The position numbers were made by a program, and so were the translations under genes. Shown one piece after another: positions 1 through 30,360 of a DNA stretch of 32,335 bases. Under the pieces are notes generated by a model, which made no database searches, was not told where the DNA came from, and worked only from the letters and a program-made list of their open reading frames with translations. The number at the start of each line of letters is the position of its first letter. Position 1 is the first letter of the stretch. This DNA comes from Patescibacteria group bacterium. Lineage in GTDB: Bacteria; Patescibacteriota; Minisyncoccia; Phycocordibacterales; Phycocordibacteraceae. The DNA is taken from positions 1-32,335 of the forward strand of contig JANLHF010000023.1 in assembly GCA_024653825.1 (NCBI GenBank), read 5' to 3'.

Positions 1-3000
1 TGCAGGTCGTCTCTCTATCGGTACTTCCACACCCTGGGGCAACGGCCTCCTCACCGTCGGCACTTCCTCGCCACTTCTCTATGTGGACAGCAACACCGGT
101 AATGTGGGGATTGGGACCTCGACACCTAGTCAAATGTTGGAGGTCAACGGAACGTTTAAGGCGGCAGCAACCAAGGTTGGCACATTTGTAAGTGAAAAGT
201 CATTTACTGTTTCTTTTCCTTCTGGCGTGGACAATCAAAAGGTCAAGCTCTATTGGCCAACAGGAGTGAGAGTACAGGGCGGATATGAAGTTACCGTGGC
301 CGCTGGTTGGAACTGGTTCATCGCTTCGGGGATGATACAAAAACGATTTGGAGTACAGGCGCAGGAATCGGGCACAATATATGTGCAACAAACTGATGTT
401 CCTTTTGTCCTTGGCGCTACAGGCAACGCCTTCACTATCTCGGACCTGCAATGGGACTCGGTAAATTTGAGGTGGTACATTGTTATCGCCGACATCCAAA
501 ATAACGCCCAGTCGGGGAACAACATCACCATCCACGTAAAGTCGTACGTGTATCCGGGCGAATCCGATACGTGGTATCTGGCCGCTGCTGATCAGATGGC
601 CGTTAGTGATGTTTACAGCGACGACGCCACTGTTTACCCGGCGCTCGCAGCAAATACTCCAAACAATTTCGGCATCGGGACCACCTCGCCACTCGCTCGA
701 CTTGATGTGGTTGGCGCGCTTTCTCAAACCACCCCACTTCTCCAAGTATCAAAACTCGGTGCGTCCTATGCCACCTCAACTGCTTTTATCATTGACTCTA
801 CCGGCAACGTCGGCATCGGGACGACGAGCCCCTACGCGAAACTGTCGATTGTCGGTTCTGCGGTCGCGGATTCGTTTAACGTCACATCTTCCGTCGGGTA
901 CCAACAGGGAGGTATCACACTGCTTACTGCGTCTACGACCGCATTTAATACCTTTGTCGGCTTCGGTGTCGGCACCTCGACCACAAGCGGTATCAAGAAC
1001 ACTTTCTTCGGGTATCAGTCGGGACAGGCAAACACGTCGGGTAACGGATCCACCGCTGTCGGATACCAGGCTCTCTTTTCAAATCTAACCAACATCAATA
1101 ACACAGCCATCGGCAATGGAGCGCTGAAATTAATGAATGGCGGCGAAGGGAACACGGCTCTCGGGAGTGGCGCGATGACTAATTCCACTTCTGGGAATTA
1201 TAACGTCGCCCTCGGACTCAACGCGATGTCGAATAGTACGGGCTCCAGCAACGTCGCAATCGGACACGCATCACTCAATCCCGCCGGCATCTTCACAGGG
1301 TCTTTCAACACGATGATAGGCAGGTATGCGGGGACCGATCTCCAGAGCGGCAGCAATAATACGTACGTCGGGTACAACACGGGAGCTTCTCTTATCGCTG
1401 CTGAGAGCGGTAATACACTAATCGGTTATCAAGCCGATGCGATCGCGGGCGCGACAAATGCAGCAGCGATTGGTAATGGAGCGTACGCCGGCGCATCAAA
1501 CGCTTTCGTGCTTGGCAATGCGAGTTCGAATGTCGGTATCGGGACGACGACGCCCTTCGCCAAGTTGGCAGTCGGGGGAGCGGCGGGCGATACGACCGGC
1601 ACGGGCTACTTCAGCGGCGCCCTCACCGCAAACTCGTTGAATCTCTCAAACGGAATTCTCACTTCAACCGCTGGCCTCTCGATCACCAGCGGCGGCGCGG
1701 GCGACCTCACTCTCGATTCGGGCTCGGGCACCATCAACATCGCCTCGGGCGACGACATCCTCGCTGTGGGCGCAAACAGCAACATCGGCTCGGTCGGCGT
1801 GAAGTTCAACACGGTGTATGCGGACACCATCTCGGCGACCACGCTCGTCGGCGTGGTCGTGGGCGGCGCGACCAACGCGGCTGATTGGATCATCAATAAT
1901 GATAACGCCTCTGCCGATACCGAACCGATGACGCTCGCCTTTGAGCGTGGTTCGGTGACGCCGAACGCGCTCCTCTCGTGGAACTCGGCCGAGAACGCAA
2001 AGCGCTTCGAGTTCAATCAGCCGCTCTTCATTCAAAGCGCCGATGCCTCCACCACGCTCACCACTCTTGATTTGAAATCGGTAGCGGGGCAGACGGCGGA
2101 TATCTTCCGCATCGCTTCTTCCAGCGGCGACTATCTTTTCAACATCGCGGCAAGCGGCAACGTCGGCATCGGGACGACCACTCCAGCGTACAAATTGGAT
2201 GTGAACGGGGATTTCAGGGTGGGAGTGGCAGGAGCAGTAGCGAATAGTCTCTATGTGAATACAACAGCCGGCAATGTCGGGATTGGGGGAACAGGTGTGC
2301 CGAATTTCATTGGCGTCAATGCAAATTCGCATGTCTTAACTATCAGCGGCGATGTTACAGGGGGTAACTTCTATCGAGGGGTTCTCGAGTTAAGAAATCC
2401 GGGAGAAGGCTTGGTAGACAATGGTGACATATATTTCGTTGGCGGTAGTACGCAGGCCACCGCCGCATACGCCTCGATTGGCAGCGGATCTGAAGGTTTG
2501 GGAGGTGCGAGCGGATACGGCTCTATTCTCACGTTCACAACTAAAGCTGATAATGGCGCGGCCGCACAACGTCTGCGTATCACAAGCACCGGCAACGTCG
2601 GCATCGGGACGACGAGTCCGTGGGCACAACTCTCGGTCAATCCGAATGGTATTACCGGCCCAGCCTTCGTCGTTGGGTCATCCACAGTCACCAACTTCAT
2701 CGTGACGAATGGTGGGAACGTGGGGATTGGGACGGCGAGTCCGGTGGCGCCTCTTAACATAGAAGGGCTTACATCTGGGGCACTTGTGCCACTTTTATAT
2801 CTTCAACAAGGTGGTTCATCTCCGAACTACGGATTTATTTTTAATGTGGACAATGTCACGACAGGAAATCTTTTCTTAGACCGCATTACTAACGGTTCTA
2901 ATGTGGGCACAGCGATGACGATTACCCCCAACCTCAATATAGGTATTGGCAACACAAGCCCCGACTCGTCTGGCGCGAGGATTGTTGTTTCACCTACGAA

Positions 3001-6000
3001 TACCACTGGCTCCGCCGTATATCAGGGTCTCGACGTTTCAAATAATATAGATGCGAATTTCCACATAGACATCACTGGTTCTGCGGCAACAGATAAGAGG
3101 GCAGTGCTTGGTAGCACAGTGGCTTCTGCACTCGCTTTCCAAACTGGCGGTACGGAAAAAATGCGGGTTACCAGTGGCGGCAACGTCGGCATCGGGACGA
3201 CGACGCCCTCATACAAACTTGACGTCGCCGGGTTCATCAACACCGACCAATATTCCGGATACAAACAAGCGGGGAATACAATTCTGTATGCTTCAACGAC
3301 AAATTTTTCAACACTTGTCGGTATAGGCCAGCCGACACTTACTCCAAGTATTGCTGGCGGGATGACCTCGTTCGGGTATCAGGCATTGGGTAACGCCACT
3401 TCTTCTTCTTACAACACGGCTATTGGATACAAGGCCCTTTTGGGGAATGCAGTAGACTCTAGTGGTCTTTCCAACACGGCTATTGGATACGAAGCTCTGC
3501 GCGACAACTCTTCAGGAGGCCTTAACACCGCCATTGGAGTAAGCGCTCTTGCTTCTCATTCGACAGGCTCATACAACACCGCTCTTGGTGCCAATGCTCT
3601 TTTGTTTGACACGGCGGGAGAACAAAATACCGCAAATGGTTCTTATGCACTTTACTCAAACACTATCGGCAGTTTCAACACCGCTGGTGGTGTCGGGGCT
3701 CTGCTTTATAACACCACTGGCTCAAATAATGCCGCTTTCGGTGTCAGTGCTCTTGAGAACAATGCTTCCGCGACCAACACCGTAGCGGTTGGATATAAAG
3801 CAGGGTTTGGTGTTCTTGGGCAGTCCGCCTTCCAGAATGCAACTTTGCTTGGTTATCAGGCTGGACTCGGTTTAACCACGGGCAACAATAATACTCTTTT
3901 GGGTTACCAAGCGGGGAGTAATCTCACCACAGGGAGTGGCAACGTTATCATCGGCTATAACATTTCGGCGACTTCAAGCATGGCCACGAACTCTCTTAAT
4001 ATCGGTAACTTGATTTTTGGCACCGGTTTAGATGGCACCGATACGACGCTCTCGAGTGGAAACGTCGGCATCGGGACGACGACGCCGGACACAAAACTTT
4101 CTGTAAACGGAACTATTTATTCATCCATAACTGAATTGGTGACCAACGGCACTTTTAGTTCAGATATTAGTGGTTGGACCGATAATTCCGGTGTTGGTTC
4201 GTCCATCGCTTGGAGTTCCGGTTTCAGTGGTTCTCTGTTGCTCAGTGGCGCTACCGCCAATGCTATAGCTGACCAGACACTGACCACTCGTATTGGGGCC
4301 AGGTATATTGTTAAAGTTACTGCGCCGGCTGCAGCACACAACTTCGACGTCCGTATTGGGTCAACTCTTGGCGGGACAGATTTACTGGACGAAACAATAT
4401 ATTCTGGGTCGGTGTCCGGTTCGTTTACCTTCTTCTTCACCGCAAGTTCCGCCACTACTTATTTCAGAGTGTTCACTGCGTCAGATGGAAATTATGTTGA
4501 TAATATATCAGTCACTCAAGCATCATTGATTGCAGAAGGAAACGTTGGTATCGGGACGTCGTCGCCGGCTGGTCCTCTGCACGTTGTAAATGTTGTTGGA
4601 GGGAGCGATGTCTTGCGTTTGGACACCACTGGCACCGGAGCTGATCAGCCAGTTGATATTCGTTTGGGTAGTAATAACGCAAAAGGTTTGAGGATTTACG
4701 CTAGTACTAACGAACTTGGATTTCAGCCCGAGGGTGCAGGATTTCAGTTTTATAGCAACAGCAGCGCTAATTTTCCCGGACAGGTCTATTTTGATTCAGG
4801 CGCACACGATTCAGCGGCGATAATGTTTAGAACATCCGCGTCTAGTACAAATATTACAGAGCGGATGCGGATAACATCCAGTGGCAACATAGGTATTGGT
4901 ATTACTACCCCAACGAGTCGGTTGCAGATTAAGGGATTTAATCAGTTGGCTGCCAGCTCCTCTCTCTCAGTCTTGGATTCTTCGAGCAACTCTCTTTTTG
5001 ATGTTAAAAACAACGGCAACGTCGGCATCGGGACGACGAGTCCGTTCGCCAAACTTTCAGTAGCAGGGGACATCTACGCAGACGGAAACCTGACCGTAGG
5101 GGGACTCACCGCCACTTCGTCAATCTCTGCCCCATACTTCACCGCCACCGACGCGGCAGCCACTTCAACTTTTGCGGGTGGACTCACGGTCGGCACTTCG
5201 CAATTTGTTGTTCAGCAAGCGACAGGGAATGTAGGGATTGGGACTGCGAATCCGGGTTCCAGTTTAGATGTGAACGGGATTATACATACAAACAATTATT
5301 TAAGGTTGGGTTCATCGGCGACTGATTCAAATTGGCAACTAGGTTTTGAAACTAGCCCAGTGTCAGCTCAACTCGTTACAGGATATGCAACTGTACTTAA
5401 TGCTGCTGCAAGTGCGAGTCAAGGGTTTATGTTCCGTAACGGGCCTACGGGGTCTAGTTTAATGGAGTTGAATGATACCAATGTATATATAGCCGGCAAC
5501 GTCGGCATCGGAACATCAAGCCCACAAGTATCGTTAGACGTTGCCGGTCTCACCCGCTATTCTGAAACTTCATCATTCACTCAGCCGACTAACGGAAAGG
5601 GTATTGAGTTTGTATATCGCACCGATAGCGGGAATGATTATGGATTTGTCCAATCGTATGACCGAACCAACTCTGTGTATAAAGACTTACACATTGACGC
5701 TCTACCGCTCAACCTGAATAGATACAGCGCTGGTGGTGTCAACATCGCGGCTGCTGGTCTTGTTAATATCGGTAATATCCAACAATCGCTTGGTAAACTG
5801 CAGGTTTTTGGAGTATACACGGGTGCGGCAGATAACATTGTGTTGAGTTTGAATTCTGGTGCTTCTGGCGTAGCTTCTAAAATCCACTTTTCTGATTCGG
5901 TAAATTGGAACTGGACAATCGGAGGATACGGAGACACGACAGGTGATTTCGTATTTAATAGCGGTGCTTGGGCAGGTGCGTTGGGAACAGAGAGAATGAG

Positions 6001-9000
6001 AATAAAACAAACTGGAGATGTCCGAATCGGAACGTATACCAATACAAGTTACGATGAGAAAGTAGCTATTGTTGGTGCCAAAGTCCCATTTGTAGGCATT
6101 CCGCAAAACCAATTGGCGGTTGTCGACAATACTTCAATGGCGGCTGGCGTGGGAGGGGCAATCAGCTTTGAGGGTAGTTATACTGGAACAACACTGACAT
6201 CATTTGCCGCTATCGCTGGAGTCAAGTCAAACGGTACGGATGCAAATTATGATGGAGACTTCACTATCGGTACCAGAGTTCACGGTGGAAATATAACTGA
6301 GAAAGTGCGTGTCTTGGCGAACGGCAACGTCGGCATCGGGATCGTGAACCCGGCATACGCGCTTGATGTTAAAGGCCAGAGTGGCACGAGCAATCTATTC
6401 AATGTCGCTTCGTCAACGGGGACAAGCCAGTTGATGGTAGATAGTCGTGGCAGACTAAATGTTAACTCTACTTCTGCCACGGCAAATCTAGCGAGGGCTG
6501 AGATAGTCGCACAGGATTCAGACCAGATAGCGCTCCACGTGAGCCACATCAATTCAAGCGGTGGTGTTTCTACTGCGTGGGGTATAAAAGTAGATGGGAA
6601 TCATCCAAATAACACCAGTCAGTACTACGGGATGCAGATAGCCCCGCTGCAATCTTATACCGCATCGATGACCGGACTGGATATTACTTATAGCGCGAGT
6701 TACGGCACCTCAAAAGGAATTAATATTGTTCTTAGTAAAAGTCTTGATGCTTCTACTCCCGGATACGGAATAAGTTCAAGTATCATTAGTACTGGCACCA
6801 CTAATAACAGCGAATTGCTTGCGGGGGATTTCAAAATTTCTCAAACAGGCGGGGCAAGCACAGATGTACAAAATGTCGCAAGATTCCAGAATGCATCTAT
6901 CACGGGAGATTCAAAATTCCTCACTTTTGGTACCGAGGCAAGTTATACAGAACGTGGGACAATTTTCTACGATAGAATCAACAATGCTCTCGATATTAAT
7001 GGCAATAACGCGTTAAGTTTGTCGACCGGGGGCACTGTCCGGGAGTTCATATCATCAACAGGCAACGTCGGCATCGGGACGACGAGTCCGTGGGGACTCC
7101 TTTCAGTCAATCCAAACGGCATCACGGGTCCATCATTTGTCATCGGCAGCTCTACACAGAACAGCTTGGTTTTCACACAAGACAATAATCTTCGTTTGTA
7201 CTCAATGGGGAATCCTCTTGTGTACTCGGAGTTCTCGCGTGGAGATACGAACGGTTATACGGTATTCAATCAAGTAGCAAATAATTTTGGATATTCTTTT
7301 AATAATAATGGCATCGCTTACCTCTCGATTCAAGGGGGCGGAGTTGGTCCCACGATTTCTGGGAATGGCGGACTTAACCTCACAACGACGAATAACACAG
7401 ATCTTCTTAACATGATGGGTTCAGTAAGAATTGGATATTCTGGAACGAATAACTACATTATACCGATTACCGACAACTTGATTTCAAACGGCACGGTAAC
7501 ACAGCGCTGGTCCTCTTTGCATGTTGGTACAGGCGATAGCTCATTCGCCGGCAACGTCGGCATCGGGACGACGAGTCCGACACAGAAACTTGATGTGTAC
7601 GCCACTGCGAATGGTGGTGGAATTGTTATAAATAATTCAGGTGGAGCTACGGCTCTGAGATTAAATACGGACAATGTTGCAACGAGTGATTATCGCAACT
7701 GGGCTTTAGTAACAAATTACACTACAAACGGCTCCTTAGCTTTTCAAGTCGGTTCAGCGAGAGGGGTAGAAGCGTATGGTGGTACAGAGGTAATGACGAT
7801 GACAAAAGAAGGCAACGTGGGTATCGGGACGACGAGTCCTTCCACCAAGTTTTCCGTCGGCGGGGCGGCGGGCGATACCACTGGTCATGGCTACTTCACT
7901 GGCGGGCTCGGCGTGGGGGTTGTCAACACGACCGCGGGCTCGCTACAGGTAAGCGGTACTGGCACATTCGGGAACCTGACTACGACGGGTAGCGATTCAG
8001 CCATTCTGCTGTCAAACACGGGTGCAGCGACGATTAAGGAAAGCGGCGGCGGCTATCTGGTCATAAGTACCGCCAGCAACAATATATATCTTGACCCCGC
8101 CGGCGATTTATATCTGAGGTCCGGTGGGGGATTCACACAGGCCGTAGTGACGGCTACAGCATCTGCCGACCGCTACTTGACGCTTACGGGCTCCAACGGC
8201 GGCGCACCAACTATTGGTACTTCTGCGGGAAATTTAAACCTCACTCCCGCCAACTCTGCCACCACTACAGTTGCAAATGGCTTCATCGCGGGGACAGGGG
8301 GCACAGGATTGGTGGTACAGCAAACAAGTGGCAACGTCGGCATCGGGACGACGAGTCCGGCTACAACGCTTTCGGTTGATGGAAATGGGTACCTCACGGG
8401 TGGGCTTGGGGTGGGCGTGGTAAATACGACGGCGGGTACCCTTAGTGTAAGCGGACTCGCTACATTAACAGGCGGTGCAGTTACTGATGCGGCGAATGGG
8501 TATGCGTTGTTCACGGGCGATCCTTCGAGTTACAATATAAGCAGGGACGGTGTAACAGTTAGTGTCAAAAGTGGAGGGGTTATTAGTTTGGTGGCACCTC
8601 AAGGAGTCTCCGTTAGTGCAGCGTTTAGTGCGACCGCCGGTCTAACTACGCTTAGTAATGCTTCCACAACGCAGTTGTCAGTATCAAACACCGCATACTT
8701 CCCCGGCTCTGGTATCTGGAATAGTAGCGGCAACGTCGGCATCGGGAACACTAATCCGCAATACACACTTGATGTCACTGGCACCGCGAACATCACCGGC
8801 ACGACGACGATTCAGGGGCTCACGGTGGGGAAAGGGGCGAGCTCTCTACCAGCAAACACCGTATTTGGAGTAGGAGCAGGAGCATCATTTACCACCGCAA
8901 ACAACAACATCGCCATCGGTACAAATGCGTTAGCAACTGCCGCGGCAACGGGAGACAGGCAAATTGCTATTGGTACGAGCGCTCTGCAAAATGCGGACAA

Positions 9001-12000
9001 CTATCTCAATGTCGCCATCGGTTATTTGGCCGGTTCTTCTATAAATACAGGTCAAGAAAACGTAATACTTGGCGGTTATGTGGCGACAGCAATGACAACA
9101 GGGTCACAAAATGTGTTTCTTGGCGGGAGCGTAGCACAACAAGGTGTTCTTACCGGCGGGCTTAATACTTTTGTTGGGTATGGCATTGCTAGCGGTCTGA
9201 ACCTTACCTCTGCATTTAGTAACACCGCCGTTGGCGGAGTCGCGCTCGCTTCACTTACGACTGGTCAGTACAACGTCGTTATGGGACGACGCGCCGGGTT
9301 TATGATTTCGTCAGGTAGCAACAACGTGATTATCGGTGGTACCGATGGTACCGCGGACTCTGTTCTCTCCACGGGGTCTGCCAATACTATAATTGGTCAA
9401 CAAGCTGGAGTTACCACAACTGGCGGCGGCAACGTTATGCTCGGCTATCGCGCCGGCTCCTTTGAAGCCGGCTCCAACTCTTTCTATGTTGATAATCAAA
9501 ACCGCACGAATACTGCAGGCGACAAAACGGGTGCGCTCCTCTATGGCACCTTCAACGCGACACCCGCTTCACAGACGCTCGTCATCAACGCCTCAACGAC
9601 CGTCGCGCAGAACTTGAGTGTTTTAGGAACAGGGAATAGTTACTTTGCCGGCAACGTCGGCATCGGGACGACGAGTCCGTGGAAGGCGTTAAGTGTCGTC
9701 GGTGGAGTAGCTTTTCCTGATTTGGAGACCAATACAGATAATGCAGATTATCCTATAATTCTGAAAAAAACAGATGGGACACTGATGTATGAAAGCGTGA
9801 TGACCGTAAACCCAGCCAACGACACTCTTGATGTCGGAAACTTACACCTGTTTACTTCTGGTACGATAAGGGCAGATAATGCGGCATTAATCTTAGCAAC
9901 CAACTACTTCAATCCCGGAATAGCATTAACCACGGGGGGTAGCAATAAGGCAATAATAGGAGATACAACCGACAGGACAATTGGGATAGCGGACAGACTA
10001 CAAATACCGGGAACTACAGAAATTACAAGTTCATTAGGTTTCTCTATGTGGTCGGCTGATGCATTAAGTTCTCGTATTGAGTTTGGTAAATCTCGTGGGG
10101 CGGCATTGGGAACGAATACTATTGTTCAAAACAATGACGTGTTAGCGACAATCGCTGGGTATGGTGCAAATGGTTCTACTTTCACGAACGCCGCGAATAT
10201 CTTTATGGAGGTTGACGGAACGCCAGGAGCAACCACGGATATGCCGGGGCGACTTACTTTTTACACCACGCCGGATGGTTCTGGGACAGCACTTGAGCGT
10301 ATGCGAATTGATAATGCAGGCAACGTGGGTATCGGGACGACGAGTCCTGCAAGTAAACTTGTTGTATATGGATCGGATTCGTCATACGGCATGGCAAGAA
10401 TCGTCAACTCAAGCGCGAACGGCGAGGCGAGTATCGCATTTAGAGATTCCAGCGACTCGGACTCGCAGTCATGGGTCATCGGGAAGAATCTTTCAAGCTC
10501 TGGTACGGATTCGTTCGGATTCTATAGCGTTACCGGTACTCATCTGACTATCACACAAGGTGGCAACGTCGGCATCGGGACGACGAGTCCATGGGCGCAA
10601 CTTTCGGTAAATCCAAACGGCATCACGGGTCCGTCGTTTGCAATCGGATCCTCCACCAAAACTGATTTCATTGTGACGAATGGGGGGAACGTGGGGATTG
10701 GAAACTTGAGTCCCACTGCCGGATTGCATATTGGTTCTGCCGCAAGCGGCAAAAACGTCAGAGTTGCTAATGGTTGGTTGTGCGTGGACAGTAATGACAC
10801 CTGCACCGGAGCGGGAACGGCCGGCACCATCTACACGGTCGACGTGGATGTCCAGGGCGCTGATGTGGCGGAAAACTATCCGACGTTGGACGCAATCCTG
10901 GAAGCGGGTGATGTAGTAACGACTGATGGTTCTAATCAGGGGTATGTTTCCAAAGCCGTTTCGACCTTTACTGTTTTAGGAGTTGTCTCCACCAAACCGG
11001 GCTTGTTGCTTAACGGGTATAAATCGGAAGATTTTCCCAATGCCAGCAACGTACCTATAGCGTTAAACGGGCGTGTGCCAGTTAAGGTATCGAGCGGAAA
11101 CGGATTCATCAGTATCGGTGATCGTCTCGCTCTCTCTTCGACCACTCCAGGTGTGGCGGTGAAGGCGCTCCATAGTGGCGAGACGATCGGTGTGGCGCTC
11201 GCACCCTACAACAGTGACACTGTGGGCTCCATAAACGTGTTCGTCTCACCGCAATACTGGCTTGCTCCCGGGGATATATCAGTTGATGTAATAACAGGCA
11301 GGGTCGGCATTGGCACCACGACACCGAACCACACGCTCACGGTCGCCGGAGATGTCGGCGCCATCGCATTCGTCAACACTTCCACCAGAAGTGCCAAGAA
11401 GGATATCGAATATAGTACTGCTTCCTCCACTAGCGATCGTCTGAACCAGCTCGTGAACCTCAAAGTCGCCACCTACCGCTACACCATTGAGAACCAGGCT
11501 GACCCACTGCGCATCGGCCTCATAGCCGAAGACACTCAATCTATCGCTCCTGAGATACTTTCAGCAGACGGTAAGGGAGTTGATCTCTACAAGCTTGCGA
11601 CCTTCACGCTCTCGGGTGTGCAGGCGCTCGCAGACAAGGTGGCGTCGGCGGAGACGCGTCTCACCTCGCTTGAAGAACGCGTTGCCATTTTGGAGCGTAT
11701 GGCAATCGGCACGAAAACCGATTTTGCGGACACGGCGACCAGCACAGTGGCAACTTCAACACCCTTTAGCATCGGGTTCATTTCAAGTTTATTCGGACAA
11801 ATAACAGAGTGGCTCGCGGATGCGGGGAACGGGATAGGAGACCTTTTTGCAAAAACATTCCACGCAAGCGAGCAGATTTGTGTGGACGATCAGTGTCTCA
11901 CGAAAGGTGATGTGAAGACGCTCTTAGACTATGTGCACGCACAGACGGCGAGTGTAGCCGATAATTCCGGCTCCTCCGGTATATCGATTTCACCGGTGGC

Positions 12001-12325
12001 GACCTCGACCACACTTTCATTAGAGGCAGCACCGACCACTGATGCAACTTCGACTACCGCGATGGCGACCACGACCGAAGCAGTGCTGACCTCGCTTGAA
12101 GTAACGACGCCCATCATTATCACCGATGTCGCGACTTCGACAGAAGCAACTACCACGACCGATACGACCACGACTATTGATGCTTCAGTGACTAGCTCGA
12201 CGACGACAGACACTCTTATCGCTGCTCCCGCGGACACAATCGCTCCGCCCGTTCCTGTCGATACGACCACGACTGCGATCAATGATACTGTTCCGACCGA
12301 CTCGGCGACAACAACAACTCCCTAG
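1..12325 (+). CDS. Giant modular repeat surface/fibre-like protein with internal Peptidase_S74 (intramolecular chaperone) domain; 5'-truncated by window edge
   Basis: Frame of ORF 83..12325 is open from nt 2: AGRLSIGTSTPWGNGLLTVGTSSPLLYV-DSNTGNVGIGTSTP. About 28 GNVGIGTTSPxxxLxVxG repeats; C-terminal region has GRVPVKVSSGNGFISIGDRLALSSTTPGVAVKA and STRSAKKDIEYS...LRIGLIAEDTQSIAPEIL (S74-type). Stop TAG 12323-12325. Confidence 0.93.
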   Translation, partial: AGRLSIGTSTPWGNGLLTVGTSSPLLYVDSNTGNVGIGTSTPSQMLEVNGTFKAAATKVGTFVSEKSFTVSFPSGVDNQKVKLYWPTGVRVQGGYEVTVAAGWNWFIASGMIQKRFGVQAQESGTIYVQQTDVPFVLGATGNAFTISDLQWDSVNLRWYIVIADIQNNAQSGNNITIHVKSYVYPGESDTWYLAAADQMAVSDVYSDDATVYPALAANTPNNFGIGTTSPLARLDVVGALSQTTPLLQVSKLGASYATSTAFIIDSTGNVGIGTTSPYAKLSIVGSAVADSFNVTSSVGYQQGGITLLTASTTAFNTFVGFGVGTSTTSGIKNTFFGYQSGQANTSGNGSTAVGYQALFSNLTNINNTAIGNGALKLMNGGEGNTALGSGAMTNSTSGNYNVALGLNAMSNSTGSSNVAIGHASLNPAGIFTGSFNTMIGRYAGTDLQSGSNNTYVGYNTGASLIAAESGNTLIGYQADAIAGATNAAAIGNGAYAGASNAFVLGNASSNVGIGTTTPFAKLAVGGAAGDTTGTGYFSGALTANSLNLSNGILTSTAGLSITSGGAGDLTLDSGSGTINIASGDDILAVGANSNIGSVGVKFNTVYADTISATTLVGVVVGGATNAADWIINNDNASADTEPMTLAFERGSVTPNALLSWNSAENAKRFEFNQPLFIQSADASTTLTTLDLKSVAGQTADIFRIASSSGDYLFNIAASGNVGIGTTTPAYKLDVNGDFRVGVAGAVANSLYVNTTAGNVGIGGTGVPNFIGVNANSHVLTISGDVTGGNFYRGVLELRNPGEGLVDNGDIYFVGGSTQATAAYASIGSGSEGLGGASGYGSILTFTTKADNGAAAQRLRITSTGNVGIGTTSPWAQLSVNPNGITGPAFVVGSSTVTNFIVTNGGNVGIGTASPVAPLNIEGLTSGALVPLLYLQQGGSSPNYGFIFNVDNVTTGNLFLDRITNGSNVGTAMTITPNLNIGIGNTSPDSSGARIVVSPTNTTGSAVYQGLDVSNNIDANFHIDITGSAATDKRAVLGSTVASALAFQTGGTEKMRVTSGGNVGIGTTTPSYKLDVAGFINTDQYSGYKQAGNTILYASTTNFSTLVGIGQPTLTPSIAGGMTSFGYQALGNATSSSYNTAIGYKALLGNAVDSSGLSNTAIGYEALRDNSSGGLNTAIGVSALASHSTGSYNTALGANALLFDTAGEQNTANGSYALYSNTIGSFNTAGGVGALLYNTTGSNNAAFGVSALENNASATNTVAVGYKAGFGVLGQSAFQNATLLGYQAGLGLTTGNNNTLLGYQAGSNLTTGSGNVIIGYNISATSSMATNSLNIGNLIFGTGLDGTDTTLSSGNVGIGTTTPDTKLSVNGTIYSSITELVTNGTFSSDISGWTDNSGVGSSIAWSSGFSGSLLLSGATANAIADQTLTTRIGARYIVKVTAPAAAHNFDVRIGSTLGGTDLLDETIYSGSVSGSFTFFFTASSATTYFRVFTASDGNYVDNISVTQASLIAEGNVGIGTSSPAGPLHVVNVVGGSDVLRLDTTGTGADQPVDIRLGSNNAKGLRIYASTNELGFQPEGAGFQFYSNSSANFPGQVYFDSGAHDSAAIMFRTSASSTNITERMRITSSGNIGIGITTPTSRLQIKGFNQLAASSSLSVLDSSSNSLFDVKNNGNVGIGTTSPFAKLSVAGDIYADGNLTVGGLTATSSISAPYFTATDAAATSTFAGGLTVGTSQFVVQQATGNVGIGTANPGSSLDVNGIIHTNNYLRLGSSATDSNWQLGFETSPVSAQLVTGYATVLNAAASASQGFMFRNGPTGSSLMELNDTNVYIAGNVGIGTSSPQVSLDVAGLTRYSETSSFTQPTNGKGIEFVYRTDSGNDYGFVQSYDRTNSVYKDLHIDALPLNLNRYSAGGVNIAAAGLVNIGNIQQSLGKLQVFGVYTGAADNIVLSLNSGASGVASKIHFSDSVNWNWTIGGYGDTTGDFVFNSGAWAGALGTERMRIKQTGDVRIGTYTNTSYDEKVAIVGAKVPFVGIPQNQLAVVDNTSMAAGVGGAISFEGSYTGTTLTSFAAIAGVKSNGTDANYDGDFTIGTRVHGGNITEKVRVLANGNVGIGIVNPAYALDVKGQSGTSNLFNVASSTGTSQLMVDSRGRLNVNSTSATANLARAEIVAQDSDQIALHVSHINSSGGVSTAWGIKVDGNHPNNTSQYYGMQIAPLQSYTASMTGLDITYSASYGTSKGINIVLSKSLDASTPGYGISSSIISTGTTNNSELLAGDFKISQTGGASTDVQNVARFQNASITGDSKFLTFGTEASYTERGTIFYDRINNALDINGNNALSLSTGGTVREFISSTGNVGIGTTSPWGLLSVNPNGITGPSFVIGSSTQNSLVFTQDNNLRLYSMGNPLVYSEFSRGDTNGYTVFNQVANNFGYSFNNNGIAYLSIQGGGVGPTISGNGGLNLTTTNNTDLLNMMGSVRIGYSGTNNYIIPITDNLISNGTVTQRWSSLHVGTGDSSFAGNVGIGTTSPTQKLDVYATANGGGIVINNSGGATALRLNTDNVATSDYRNWALVTNYTTNGSLAFQVGSARGVEAYGGTEVMTMTKEGNVGIGTTSPSTKFSVGGAAGDTTGHGYFTGGLGVGVVNTTAGSLQVSGTGTFGNLTTTGSDSAILLSNTGAATIKESGGGYLVISTASNNIYLDPAGDLYLRSGGGFTQAVVTATASADRYLTLTGSNGGAPTIGTSAGNLNLTPANSATTTVANGFIAGTGGTGLVVQQTSGNVGIGTTSPATTLSVDGNGYLTGGLGVGVVNTTAGTLSVSGLATLTGGAVTDAANGYALFTGDPSSYNISRDGVTVSVKSGGVISLVAPQGVSVSAAFSATAGLTTLSNASTTQLSVSNTAYFPGSGIWNSSGNVGIGNTNPQYTLDVTGTANITGTTTIQGLTVGKGASSLPANTVFGVGAGASFTTANNNIAIGTNALATAAATGDRQIAIGTSALQNADNYLNVAIGYLAGSSINTGQENVILGGYVATAMTTGSQNVFLGGSVAQQGVLTGGLNTFVGYGIASGLNLTSAFSNTAVGGVALASLTTGQYNVVMGRRAGFMISSGSNNVIIGGTDGTADSVLSTGSANTIIGQQAGVTTTGGGNVMLGYRAGSFEAGSNSFYVDNQNRTNTAGDKTGALLYGTFNATPASQTLVINASTTVAQNLSVLGTGNSYFAGNVGIGTTSPWKALSVVGGVAFPDLETNTDNADYPIILKKTDGTLMYESVMTVNPANDTLDVGNLHLFTSGTIRADNAALILATNYFNPGIALTTGGSNKAIIGDTTDRTIGIADRLQIPGTTEITSSLGFSMWSADALSSRIEFGKSRGAALGTNTIVQNNDVLATIAGYGANGSTFTNAANIFMEVDGTPGATTDMPGRLTFYTTPDGSGTALERMRIDNAGNVGIGTTSPASKLVVYGSDSSYGMARIVNSSANGEASIAFRDSSDSDSQSWVIGKNLSSSGTDSFGFYSVTGTHLTITQGGNVGIGTTSPWAQLSVNPNGITGPSFAIGSSTKTDFIVTNGGNVGIGNLSPTAGLHIGSAASGKNVRVANGWLCVDSNDTCTGAGTAGTIYTVDVDVQGADVAENYPTLDAILEAGDVVTTDGSNQGYVSKAVSTFTVLGVVSTKPGLLLNGYKSEDFPNASNVPIALNGRVPVKVSSGNGFISIGDRLALSSTTPGVAVKALHSGETIGVALAPYNSDTVGSINVFVSPQYWLAPGDISVDVITGRVGIGTTTPNHTLTVAGDVGAIAFVNTSTRSAKKDIEYSTASSTSDRLNQLVNLKVATYRYTIENQADPLRIGLIAEDTQSIAPEILSADGKGVDLYKLATFTLSGVQALADKVASAETRLTSLEERVAILERMAIGTKTDFADTATSTVATSTPFSIGFISSLFGQITEWLADAGNGIGDLFAKTFHASEQICVDDQCLTKGDVKTLLDYVHAQTASVADNSGSSGISISPVATSTTLSLEAAPTTDATSTTAMATTTEAVLTSLEVTTPIIITDVATSTEATTTTDTTTTIDASVTSSTTTDTLIAAPADTIAPPVPVDTTTTAINDTVPTDSATTTTP
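965..1540 (+). repeat. YadA-head-like repeat block 1 (NTAIGxxAL / NVAIG type)
   Basis: Protein shows NTFFGYQSGQ, STAVGYQAL, NTAIGNGAL, NTALGSGAM, NVALGLNAM, NVAIGHASL, NTLIGYQAD. Confidence 0.7.
3330..3990 (+). repeat. YadA-head-like repeat block 2
   Basis: NTAIGYKALLGN, NTAIGYEALRDN, NTAIGVSALASH, NTALGANALLFD, NTANGSYALYSN, NAAFGVSALENN, NTVAVGYKAG. Confidence 0.72.
4132..4530 (+). other. Carbohydrate-binding/jelly-roll-like domain inside the giant protein
   Basis: ELVTNGTFSSDISGWTDNSG...YIVKVTAP...FTFFFTASSATTYFRVFTASDGNYVDNISVTQ resembles CBM_4_9/galactose-binding-like domains. Confidence 0.5.
8850..9470 (+). repeat. YadA-head-like repeat block 3
   Basis: NNIAIGTNALATA, RQIAIGTSALQNA, LNVAIGYLAG, NTAVGGVALASL, NVVMGRRAG, NTIIGQQAG, NVMLGYRAG. 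Confidence 0.7.
11372..11690 (+). other. Peptidase_S74 / intramolecular chaperone auto-processing domain
   Basis: VNTSTRSAKKDIEYSTASSTSDRLNQLVNLKVATYRYTIENQADPLRIGLIAEDTQSIAPEILSADGKGVDLYKLATFTLSGVQALADKV; Ser codon 11381-11383, Lys codon 11396-11398 (+5). Confidence 0.75.
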
Positions 12326-23069: not shown

Positions 23070-24205
23070 GATTCGTGTGTCAGAGCAATTGAAAGCGCTG
23101 CACGCGCGACGAGGCGTGCCGCATCCGGGTCGGTAAAGCCGGCGGCGCCAACAGCCATACGCTTCATCAATTCCGGATCGCCCAGAACGCGCTGTACTTC
23201 AGAGATGAGCAAGTGGGGAGTAAGATTTTCTTCTTCAAGAACGATGGCCGCGCCCGTCCGAGCATAGCTGTATGCATTTGTACGCTGGTCATGGCTTATC
23301 GATTCGGGTATCGGAATAAGGATCGAGGGCTTCTTCCAAAGGCCAATCTCTGCGATAGAGTTGGCGCCGGCGCGCGATACGACAAGATCGGCGGCGCCTG
23401 CCGCTCTTTGAAGAGCGGTTTCATTCAAATAATTTATCGGATGGTAGCGGCTTGCGTGCGGAGATTTGGCGAGTACCACCTGTCCGATGGATTGCACGTG
23501 CTCAAAGTTCGTCTGCCCCGTTTGATGGATAAGGTTGGCGATAGTGACGAGCTCAGGAAGAGCTGATATAACAACTTCGTTTATCTTCACTGCGCCCTGC
23601 GAACCCCCGAGGATGACGATCGTCGGGACTTCTTTCTCCAATCCGAGAAATTGTCGCGCGCCTTCGGTCTCAAGTCGTCCGAGCGCCTTACGAATAGGAA
23701 TGCCGGTGCGCGCGATCTTCCCCTGCACCTTCTTGGGGAAATAGGCCGCGGCACTTTCAAAAGAGATGGCGATCTTTGTGGCAAATTTTGCGGCAAGCAG
23801 GTTCGCGCGGCCGGGCTTCGCATCTGATTCATGAATAATGATAGGAATGTGTAGGAGCCATGCGGCGATTACTGTCGGCACGCTACCGTAGCCGCCTTTG
23901 CTTACCACCACATCCGGATAAAGGCGGAAAAGCGTAATGACCGCCGCTATAATCCCGAAGAACGTAATGAAAGAGTCGGTAACGTTACGAATCGAAGTAT
24001 AGCGACGCATCTTTCCTGCCGAGACGTGGATATAGGTAATGCTGTTCTCAAAAAGAGCTTTTTCATCGAATGCACTTGGCGCGAGATAATACAGTTTCGG
24101 CGCGATGAGATGTTCTTCTCGCACGAAGTCGGCAAGCGCTTCGGCGATGGCGATAATTGGATAAAAATGCCCGCCGGTCCCTCCCCCCGTAAACGCGATA
24201 GTCAT
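23066..24205 (-). CDS. murG: UDP-N-acetylglucosamine--N-acetylmuramyl-(pentapeptide) pyrophosphoryl-undecaprenol GlcNAc transferase MurG
   Basis: AFTGGGTGGHFYPIIAIAEAL; VVSKGGYGSVPTVIAA; IIHESDAKPGRAN; VVSRAGANSIAEI. Confidence 0.93.
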   Translation of the reverse strand: MTIAFTGGGTGGHFYPIIAIAEALADFVREEHLIAPKLYYLAPSAFDEKALFENSITYIHVSAGKMRRYTSIRNVTDSFITFFGIIAAVITLFRLYPDVVVSKGGYGSVPTVIAAWLLHIPIIIHESDAKPGRANLLAAKFATKIAISFESAAAYFPKKVQGKIARTGIPIRKALGRLETEGARQFLGLEKEVPTIVILGGSQGAVKINEVVISALPELVTIANLIHQTGQTNFEHVQSIGQVVLAKSPHASRYHPINYLNETALQRAAGAADLVVSRAGANSIAEIGLWKKPSILIPIPESISHDQRTNAYSYARTGAAIVLEEENLTPHLLISEVQRVLGDPELMKRMAVGAAGFTDPDAARLVARAALSIALTHES

Positions 24206-27356: not shown

Positions 27357-27902
27357 TTATGGGAGCGCGGTTACTTCTTCTTTTAATATCTCTGCGGCGG
27401 CAACGCGCAATTCTTCTGCGCGCGGGAGGGCTTCAACGTTCGCTACGCCAAGATGAGCGAGCGCTTCGGTCGTAAGCGAGTAGCGGATACGACGCTTGTC
27501 GTGCTCGTCTTCTTTCCCCTCGATGAGCCCGCGCATAAGAAGTGTGCGGAGCGATGCCGAAGAATTAACCCCGCGCACCCAATCGATCTCGCCACGCGTT
27601 GTTCCGGTGCCGTAGGCGATTGTCGCGAGTGTTTCGAGGCTCGCCTTCCCAAGGTCGCGAGAGAGCTCGCTCTCGTGTAGTTTCTTCACGATATCGCTCG
27701 CCTCGGGAACGGTGCGCAATTCCACCTCGGTAGCAGTCTCAACGATCATAATCCCACTCCCTTTGAGCGAGTCCGTGAGCGCCTTGAGCACCAGTTTCAA
27801 TTCGGCGTCTTTGACCTCCAGAAGCTTGGCGAGTTGCTTCTTCTCCAAGGGTTCCCCGGAGGCAAAAAGAAGCGCATGGGCTGCGGCAGGAGGCGTAAGC
27901 AT
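27357..27902 (-). CDS. scpB: Segregation and condensation protein B
   Basis: AHALLFASGEPLEKKQLAKLLEV...ETLATIAYGTGTTRGEIDWVRGVNSSASLRTLLMRGLIE. ATG at 27902 preferred over the TTG at 27938. Confidence 0.9.
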   Translation of the reverse strand: MLTPPAAAHALLFASGEPLEKKQLAKLLEVKDAELKLVLKALTDSLKGSGIMIVETATEVELRTVPEASDIVKKLHESELSRDLGKASLETLATIAYGTGTTRGEIDWVRGVNSSASLRTLLMRGLIEGKEDEHDKRRIRYSLTTEALAHLGVANVEALPRAEELRVAAAEILKEEVTALP

Positions 27903-27954
27903 CCTCCTCAGTATAAAGGTCTCTTCCCTCTCCAGCAACGTCCTCTCTTGGGGA
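27887..27954 (-). repeat. Promoter/start duplication copy B (scpB)
   Basis: TTGCTG-N17-TATACT-N7-ATGCTTACGCCTCCTG; paired with copy A at 29192-29259. Confidence 0.65.
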
Positions 27955-27965
27955 TGTGAGAGTCC

Positions 27966-29207
27966 TTATGGTAATACAAATGTCACTTCGCGAATCATTG
28001 GGCTATCTGAAACCCCGTTATTATTATTCCTATAAACAGACGCGGTGAGTGTTCGTGTTTGCTCGTTAAATGAGACCTCATAGTCATCAGCTAATCCAAT
28101 TCGCTTGACATAAGATTCCTCGCTTTCATCACGACTTCGGACTCCATTAACGTCAGTGAAGCTATGGGTAAATTCTGAATTTGGAATTAGTGTAATAGTA
28201 CTGTCTCCTGCCTTGTAGTAGCAAACGCCACCGTCAGAAACCGAAATAATATAATTCTTTGTTTCCAGATAACCAGCCCACATATCCAAATTACAATAAT
28301 TATTGTTCTCAACACTTTTCCATGTGCCCCGCTCAATTAACTGAAACGCAAGACCCGGTTTTTCTCCAGCGCAGCCAACAAGTATGTTCTCCGCATCATA
28401 ATATTTAAGTTTGCATCTGTCGGATTGAAGCTGTGTGTCATATTTTTTAGCCAGATAGGTATTATATTCATCAACCAGTTTTTTTTGCTCAGTGGATAGA
28501 TTTTCATATTGAGCGGCACTTCCAAGCAAAATGTTTCCAGCAATTTTATCTTGCGGAGTTACAGATGTCTGTGCTGTTGTCGTCGTTTGGGTAGTGGATT
28601 TGATCGATTGCAATATCGCATCAAAAGTCGCCATAGTTGATGGCAACGTGTTTCCTGCGGCGTCGGTCAGAAGAGTTCGTACAACTATAGTTTGCCCTGA
28701 ATTGATAAGATATCCGGTTAAAGTTTGTTCTTTATAGGTTTGTGCTGTTGACTGTCCTGCAGTAATAACTCGTGCGTAGCTAACACCGTGCGCATTTTGC
28801 AAATTCTTGCACTCCACCTCTCGAACGTTTATCGGGCAAGTAGCTGAAGCGGTTCCCGTTTGGAGAGGAGAGAAAGCGAAAGTGATAATGTTGGCATCGC
28901 CGCTTGTTGGAATCAAACTCAAGCCGCCGCTTGTCTTAGCAACTGTCCATGTCGCAGGGTGTTCAAATTCAAATCCATATTGTGTATTTGTATACGTTTT
29001 TAAATCCGAAATCTGAGTTGTTGTGATTCCTTGAGTTGAAGGAGATTCATCCGCGGGTTGGTTGCCCTTTTGCACATACGCATACACACCAGCGCCGATA
29101 AGAAGAACTACTATGAGTATGATAATTAACGGCGTTGCAAACCTCATTTGTGGATTCTTCGTAGGAAGAACGGCGTCACTCGTATCAATATCAGGGGGCG
29201 TAAGCAT
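27966..29207 (-). CDS. TM-anchored protein with PsbP-like N-terminal module and unknown C-terminal domain
   Basis: TM FATPLIIILIVVLLIGAGVYAY; YTNTQYGFEFEHPATWTVAKTSGGLSLIP; C-terminal Cys-containing domain not recognised. Confidence 0.75.
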   Translation of the reverse strand: MLTPPDIDTSDAVLPTKNPQMRFATPLIIILIVVLLIGAGVYAYVQKGNQPADESPSTQGITTTQISDLKTYTNTQYGFEFEHPATWTVAKTSGGLSLIPTSGDANIITFAFSPLQTGTASATCPINVREVECKNLQNAHGVSYARVITAGQSTAQTYKEQTLTGYLINSGQTIVVRTLLTDAAGNTLPSTMATFDAILQSIKSTTQTTTTAQTSVTPQDKIAGNILLGSAAQYENLSTEQKKLVDEYNTYLAKKYDTQLQSDRCKLKYYDAENILVGCAGEKPGLAFQLIERGTWKSVENNNYCNLDMWAGYLETKNYIISVSDGGVCYYKAGDSTITLIPNSEFTHSFTDVNGVRSRDESEESYVKRIGLADDYEVSFNEQTRTLTASVYRNNNNGVSDSPMIREVTFVLP

Positions 29208-29259
29208 TGAGTCTATTGTAGCCGTCTCTCCTCTCTAGGGCAACGCCTCTATTTGGGGA
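29192..29259 (-). repeat. Promoter/start duplication copy A (413-aa gene)
   Basis: TTGCCC-N17-TACAAT-N7-ATGCTTACGCCCCCTG; same length and spacing as copy B. Confidence 0.65.
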
Positions 29260-29264
29260 AATGG

Positions 29265-29645
29265 CTAGTGTATGAAATTGCGATTGCGACGGAGATAGGC
29301 AAACCAGCCGGAGATGTTCGTAAACAGAAAGAGAATCAGAACGGCAATAGTGACGATCAAAAGATCATCATGATGAAGTGGATACAGAAGGAATAGGTAT
29401 GAAGTGAGGATAAAAGCTACCACAGGTAAGATAATGTCGAGCAGACTATTTTGGGTTGTTTCTTTTATGTCAACAAATTTTTCATATATCTCCCAGAGCA
29501 TTGCGAGTATGATAGTGAAAGCGAGAATGGTAAGGAATGGTATCCCCGTAAGCGGTGACAGAGCAGCCATAAGAATGCCGAAGAGAAAGTGCGGGATAGA
29601 CCAGAGATCAAACGCCCTCCCCTTCCGCCACCAGTCTCTAGCCAT
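29265..29645 (-). CDS. Small 4-TM membrane protein, possibly YjdF/DUF2238- or VanZ-like
   Basis: MARDWWRKGRAFDLWSIPHFLFGILMAALSP...AMLWEIYEKFVDIKETTQNSLLDIILPVVAF. ATG at 29645 overlaps the scpA 3' end. Confidence 0.65.
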   Translation of the reverse strand: MARDWWRKGRAFDLWSIPHFLFGILMAALSPLTGIPFLTILAFTIILAMLWEIYEKFVDIKETTQNSLLDIILPVVAFILTSYLFLLYPLHHDDLLIVTIAVLILFLFTNISGWFAYLRRNRNFIH

Positions 29646-30360
29646 ATCGTGGAGTGGAGGCAGAGGCCGTGTGGCTGATGCGAATGTCGCCATAAGTATC
29701 GTATTGTTCGGCGGCGACCGCACCCTGCTTCACGAGCTCGAGAAGAGCGAGGAATGAGACAATGATCTCCACTTTCTCCTTCGTCCCGCCGTGGAAGTCT
29801 TTGAAGGAGAGAGTCATCGCGCTCTGCACTCGCTTGGCGAGTTGGTCCATCATCTCTTCAATAGTAACGAGTGGCTTTACTCGCGCTTCGGGCAATTCTT
29901 CCACCACTTCGCGTGCGGTGAGCACGCGCGCCATCGCTTCGGCGAGCGCCGCGGCCGAGAGGTCGCGCGAGGGAGAGAAGACGACTCCGGGGAGCCGTTC
30001 CCCCGCCGGCAGCATCATCTTTTTTCCGAAAATGCGCACAAGTTCGCGCGAGGCCTCGCGCACTTTTTCATAGGCCTCGAGCCGGCGCTTCAGGTCATCG
30101 ACGTCCGCATTCTCGTCCTCGGTAAGCGCAAGATCGGGGATAAGTGACTTGGATTTTATGAGGAGAAGCGTTGCGGCAATCTGGATGAAATTCGCGGTTT
30201 CTTCTACCGGGAACGCTGTCTGCGCGCGGACGTGCTGGATGTAATCCTCGGTGATGTGCGCGAGCGCGAGTTCGTTAACCAAAAGTTTCCGTGCCTCAAT
30301 AAGGTCTAAGAGCACTTCAAACGGCCCTTCGTATGCATCGGTTTTTATATTGAATGGCAT
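29638..30360 (-). CDS. scpA: Segregation and condensation protein A
   Basis: YEGPFEVLLDLIEARKLLVNELALAHITEDYI...FIQIAATLLLIKSKSLIPD; VSFLALLELVKQG. Confidence 0.93.
   Translation of the reverse strand: MPFNIKTDAYEGPFEVLLDLIEARKLLVNELALAHITEDYIQHVRAQTAFPVEETANFIQIAATLLLIKSKSLIPDLALTEDENADVDDLKRRLEAYEKVREASRELVRIFGKKMMLPAGERLPGVVFSPSRDLSAAALAEAMARVLTAREVVEELPEARVKPLVTIEEMMDQLAKRVQSAMTLSFKDFHGGTKEKVEIIVSFLALLELVKQGAVAAEQYDTYGDIRISHTASASTPRYG

Follow-up and report, generated by a model that had tools for sequence, protein, structure and literature searches.

The window analysed here, a contig of 32,335 nucleotides (C31), belongs to a metagenome-type genome of 669 kb that consists of 41 contigs and shows 3.18% contamination. 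On the minus strand the genes of the locus follow the order aspS, scpA, m126, a gene for a protein of 413 amino acids, scpB and dacA (Table 1). The names aspS and dacA are presumed from the sequence and not from a family search, and the Pfam search with m126 returned no family above the cut-off. The original prediction held that the 413-aa gene interrupts the scpA/scpB cluster; it does lie between the two genes, but it shares this position with m126, so that two genes separate the chromosome-segregation genes scpA and scpB. The named relatives found on the basis of scpB are uncultured genomes that carry the labels Kaiserbacteria, Nomurabacteria, Parcubacteria or Paceibacterota, and all belong to the candidate phyla radiation. 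Elsewhere in the window (2-12325, plus strand) an open-ended ORF codes for 4107 aa with numerous GNVGIGT(T/S)(T/S)P repeats and resembles tail-fibre or adhesin-type repeat proteins.

Table 1. Features of the scpA-scpB interval and its flanks in window coordinates; the last row refers to a locus of another genome of the genus.
Feature	Position	Strand	Evidence or remark
scpA	29638..30360	-	Conserved left boundary of the slot; PF02616, E 2.5e-18
m126, 126-aa membrane protein	29265..29645	-	Found in this slot in nine further genomes of the genus
Upstream promoter/start copy (ATG and codons 2-5 included)	29192..29262	-	nhmmer 43.6 bits; directly follows m126
-35 TTGCCC of upstream copy	29238..29243	-	Sequence; aligned to the model
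-10 TACAAT of upstream copy	29215..29220	-	17 nt from -35, 7 nt before ATG
413-aa cargo gene	27966..29207	-	Carries an added N-terminus, a membrane anchor, a PsbP-like domain and a rare C-terminal domain
Captured codons 1-5 (MLTPP) of 413-aa gene	29193..29207	-	As in scpB
Putative linker codons 6-15 (DIDTSDAVLP) of 413-aa gene	29163..29192	-	Alignment of homologue N-termini
Position of the ancestral start of 413-aa gene, codon 16, now ACG	29160..29162	-	Homologue alignment
Predicted N-terminal peptide from captured start of 413-aa gene			MLTPPDIDTSDAVLPTK (with or without Met)
Downstream promoter/start copy, in use by scpB	27885..27964	-	nhmmer 48.3 bits
-35 TTGCTG of scpB	27938-27933	-	Sequence
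-10 TATACT of scpB	27910..27915	-	Sequence; 7 nt before ATG
scpB	27357..27902	-	Conserved right boundary of the slot; PF04079, E 7e-36
G087 scar	L171 (G087:C28:707-6102), 3694-3945		Partial scpB promoter/start fused to second scpA 3' end

The 413-aa gene and scpB begin in nearly the same way (MLTPP), and the similarity continues upstream. Alignment of approximately 29262-29192 with 27960-27885 (both minus strand) gave 50 identical columns out of 71, or about 70%, and the match spans a CCCCAA box, the spacer and five codons. The local score between the copies was 26, compared with at most 19 in 2000 dinucleotide-preserving shuffled pairs and with at most 18 for unrelated places of the window. 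The likeness that had been claimed for the two gene starts is thus significant against shuffled controls, and the promoter layout claimed for them can be read in both copies: a -35 TTGC(TG/CC), a 17-nt spacer, a -10 (TATACT/TACAAT), 7 nt and then ATGCTTACGCC(T/C)CCTG. We also built an nhmmer profile of the scpB promoter and first codons from 52 other genomes of the genus, with the source genome excluded. This model matches the window at two places only, scpB (48.3 bits, E 1.4e-14) and the 413-aa gene (43.6 bits, E 4.2e-13); the third-best score is 4.6 bits, and the window's remaining gene starts give no match. A promoter-only model, from which the coding part was left out, gave 22.7 bits at scpB, 23.7 bits at the 413-aa gene and 3.9 bits at the next place. 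Since a model that was built without the source genome matches both places, the 413-aa gene has a genuine second copy of the genus-wide scpB promoter with its start. Two matches to the promoter and start pattern at scpB occur in one of the 93 genomes of the genus, the source genome, and the others have one copy. A genome search with a loose 13-base pattern returned as many matches as the reversed control and is hence uninformative. In two other genomes, at L142 (G086, approximately 800-866) and just before scpB at L047 and L186 (G078), a similar extra stretch, ACTCGACAGTGTGATGA[AT]GCATCAG, seems to be present in the scpB promoter between the conserved TTGC box and the -10 element.

The 7 nt between the -10 element and the ATG in both copies are a leaderless distance. 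In 50 of the 52 relatives the scpB ATG is preceded by a TAnnnT element at a distance of 6-8 nt (shuffle mean 1.9), and a Shine-Dalgarno-like core precedes scpB in only seven of the 52. With the -10 element so close to the ATG, the transcripts from the scpB-type promoter are probably leaderless, and promoter and ATG would then form one transferable unit. If this is so, the promoter together with the ATG would suffice for a gene, and its capture would be effective in a single step. TAnnnT elements approximately 6-8 nt before an ATG are also seen in the window at 24205 (-), 21759 (-), 16711 (+), 18843 (+) and 19242 (+). Leaderless transcription may be common in the source genome, since several genes of the window share this spacing. 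Our literature search for leaderless transcripts in this bacterial group found no study.

The protein that is started by the upstream copy contains a PsbP-like domain (PF18933) at residues 28-141, with an E-value of 4e-8 and 33.9 bits at a curated cut-off of 27; its single-sequence structure prediction was poor (mean pLDDT 39). Matches to the protein were found in 21 of the 93 genomes of the genus, mostly to the N-terminal anchor and the PsbP-like part, and related proteins lie inside the scpA-scpB slot only in the source genome, G016, G073 and G087. The C-terminal domain is rarer still and was seen only in the source genome, in G016 (in the same slot) and in G240, which belongs to another family. 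About 20 homologues of the anchor begin with M-K-x-x-Q-K/R-G-F or a close variant, and these align without gaps onto T16-K17-N18-P19-Q20-M21-R22-F23. The homologue Met thus falls on codon 16, and this alignment shows that the ancestral start was codon 16, now ACG, and that approximately 15 residues have been added to the protein, five as in scpB and ten as a linker. M21 (MRFATPLIIIL), which had been suggested as the natural start, is ruled out by the same alignment, and the proposal that scpB donated the N-terminus holds for the first five residues but not for the ten that follow. The linker was probably the upstream DNA of the cargo gene. After codon 5 we found no further scpB remnant in the gene, and no TAnnnT element was read at the usual distance before codon 16, so that the gene appears to have lost its native promoter too.

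One would argue that two ordinary leaderless promoters may resemble each other by chance or convergence, and some similarity is indeed expected when several genes of the window share the -10 to ATG spacing. However, the match (E 4e-13) takes in the CCCCAA box as well as the spacer and five codons, it recurs at none of the window's other gene starts, and the homologues lack the extra N-terminal residues. We therefore regard a fortuitous resemblance as practically negligible. An assembly error joining two contigs or strains at the scpB promoter would be in line with the metagenome-type origin of the genome, its contig number and its contamination. It is nevertheless very unlikely, as the copies share no exact match long enough for the usual assembly collapse and the reading frame runs on through the junction for 413 codons. 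The captured promoter and start are fused in frame to a gene whose native start is missing. The promoter and start capture of the original prediction agrees with the independent model, which matches both copies, with the single copy in the other members of the genus, with the absence of the 413-aa gene from almost all relatives and with homologues that start at codon 16.

The place where this occurred is highly variable. We found scpA in 86 of the 93 genomes and scpB matches, a few of them weak, in 86 of 93; in the 79 genomes with both genes on one contig the interval between them measures 13 to 4594 bp. By contrast, all 30 loci compared have a gap of -4 to 23 bp between scpB and dacA. The 44 intervals of at least 200 bp contain 51 candidate ORFs in 28 clusters, some of which may be spurious. 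Among the cargo with Pfam matches are an arginine decarboxylase, a FAD oxidoreductase, a RibD-like protein, a cyclic phosphodiesterase, an IS200-like transposase, a RelB/YafQ toxin-antitoxin pair and a BacA-type protein on the opposite strand. The transposase ORF (Y1_Tnp; L167 of G073, 465-1172) adjoins a relative of the 413 anchor, and the toxin-antitoxin pair lies at 447-1024 of L168 (G002). Its contents are so variable that the interval between scpA and scpB amounts to a cargo slot with conserved genes on either side. This highly variable cargo supports the original prediction of a recurrent slot. m126 occupies the slot in ten genomes, the source genome included. One bin, G004, has two scpB-m126 copies (G004:C28 and G004:C40; L036 and L066), each 81% identical to the query scpB, which reflect a duplication or else the mixing of two strains in the bin.

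The 413-aa gene is more AT-rich than scpA and scpB (GC 0.42 compared with 0.56-0.58), as had been claimed of it and its neighbours, but m126 is similarly low (0.44). Low GC is a weak sign of import, since m126 and most other slot intervals of the genus also lie below their flanks.

A transposon target-site duplication or a mobile promoter cassette could also place a repeated promoter beside cargo, and the slot of G073 does carry the IS200-like transposase ORF. However, a repeat of approximately 70 bp with 70% identity is unusual for a target-site duplication, the ORFs of the slot in the source genome include no transposase, and the genome does not carry the promoter and start pattern at scattered sites, the third match to it being unlike the promoter. 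We hold this pair of explanations to be highly improbable, and the mobile cassette is ruled out by the lack of dispersed copies. What had been read as a target-duplication scar looks like a recombination remnant, which is more likely than a transposon scar, and of the proposed recurrent cassette slot the slot with variable cargo stands, but the mobile promoter cassette does not.

We favour, with moderate confidence, a scenario in which a slot allele was imported from a relative, with homologous recombination on one side and illegitimate recombination on the other, and the resident promoter and start were left to drive the cargo. Incoming DNA of a relative with the order cargo, scpB promoter and scpB would have entered the cell; one of its ends would have been exchanged homologously in or beyond scpB, and the other would have been joined illegitimately to the resident scpB, immediately past its codon 5. 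The promoter, the ATG and the five codons of the resident allele would have stayed behind m126, where they would now provide the start of the cargo gene, and the imported promoter would serve scpB. The arrangement at the locus is a remnant promoter and start at 29192-29262, then the cargo, then an intact promoter with scpB. Several relatives that carry m126 have their single scpB promoter just behind it, and the upstream copy is probably the resident one because it directly follows m126 in the same way. A component predicted to act in DNA uptake is encoded in the genome (ComEC family, E 6.9e-45), and com-dependent transformation has been demonstrated in Saccharibacteria, another patescibacterial class (PMC10633639). 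The donor would be a relative with the order scpA, 413 and scpB; this arrangement was not found in our samples of the genus and the order, and none of the 11 loci from an scpB-based scan of genome contigs has a 413 match or a second match to the promoter model.

The main competitor of such an import is an internal tandem duplication of the scpB promoter and 5' end, or of all scpB, after which the cargo landed between the copies or replaced the first scpB body. This would also account for two promoter and start copies in direct orientation with one intact scpB. It is at odds with the 413-aa gene, which has no scpB remnant past codon 5, and with the copies themselves, which are only 70% identical: they score 26 with each other, but the scpB copy scores 50 with G104 and the 413 copy 34 with G023. 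As each copy is closer to the promoter of another species, two alleles of different origin would fit better than a recent duplication, although this preference is thin, the comparison covering a short stretch of about 70 bp. We consider the tandem duplication possible but unlikely.

A comparable scar lies in the slot of G087, where scpA is followed by an ORF of 1075 aa. An incomplete scpB promoter and start comes next, then another copy of the scpA 3' end, then m126 and a protein of 180 aa related to the 413 anchor; the intact scpB promoter and scpB close the series. The second scpA 3' end is identical to the first in 153 of 167 columns, and the fusion point lies inside TCTCCTTCAA, which overlaps both parent sequences. 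It seems that two alleles of the slot have come to lie one after the other here. The arrangement could be an assembly fault; however, the repeated parts have diverged. This scar, the C-terminal domain of the 413-aa protein in the same slot of G016 and the variability of the slot count in favour of the import of slot alleles.

These findings provide a concrete and testable case in which an imported gene of an uncultured candidate-phyla bacterium would gain expression from the complete, probably leaderless start unit of its neighbour. They also suggest that the interval between scpA and scpB is a natural cargo slot and that remnants in such slots record recombination, in a phylum for which DNA uptake has been demonstrated in few cultured members only. 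A broader view would be that in this group leaderless promoters turn the promoter, the ATG and a few codons into a self-contained start unit and that the scpB start, a conserved housekeeping start beside a cargo slot, is a repeated landing point, which gives incoming genes expression and a new N-terminus; we put this forward as a distinctly doubtful generalization.

The capture is a well-supported variant of known processes, and our literature search for promoter capture together with a start codon found nothing directly comparable. The 413-aa protein resembles PsbP-like proteins in residues 28-141, which pass the Pfam cut-off, and differs from them by the extra membrane anchor, the rare C-terminal domain and the added N-terminus. 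The scpB and 413 starts share with leaderless genes the -10 element 6-8 nt before the ATG and the scarcity of Shine-Dalgarno-like cores at scpB. Homology-facilitated illegitimate recombination is described for Acinetobacter, Streptococcus pneumoniae and Pseudomonas stutzeri (cited in PMC5361080; also PMC3240628). Those events likewise combine a homologous and an illegitimate end, added DNA and a remnant of the displaced allele; in our case, read from the DNA of an uncultured patescibacterium, the remnant would be a promoter and start codon used by the added gene. In the stacked immunity-gene arrays of the Vibrio cholerae T6SS loci (PMC5361080), a conserved anchor gene is likewise the site where remnants of earlier slot alleles persist next to new cargo. 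The scpA-scpB slot differs from these arrays in that it has no effector-immunity genes and its remnant is a regulatory start unit.
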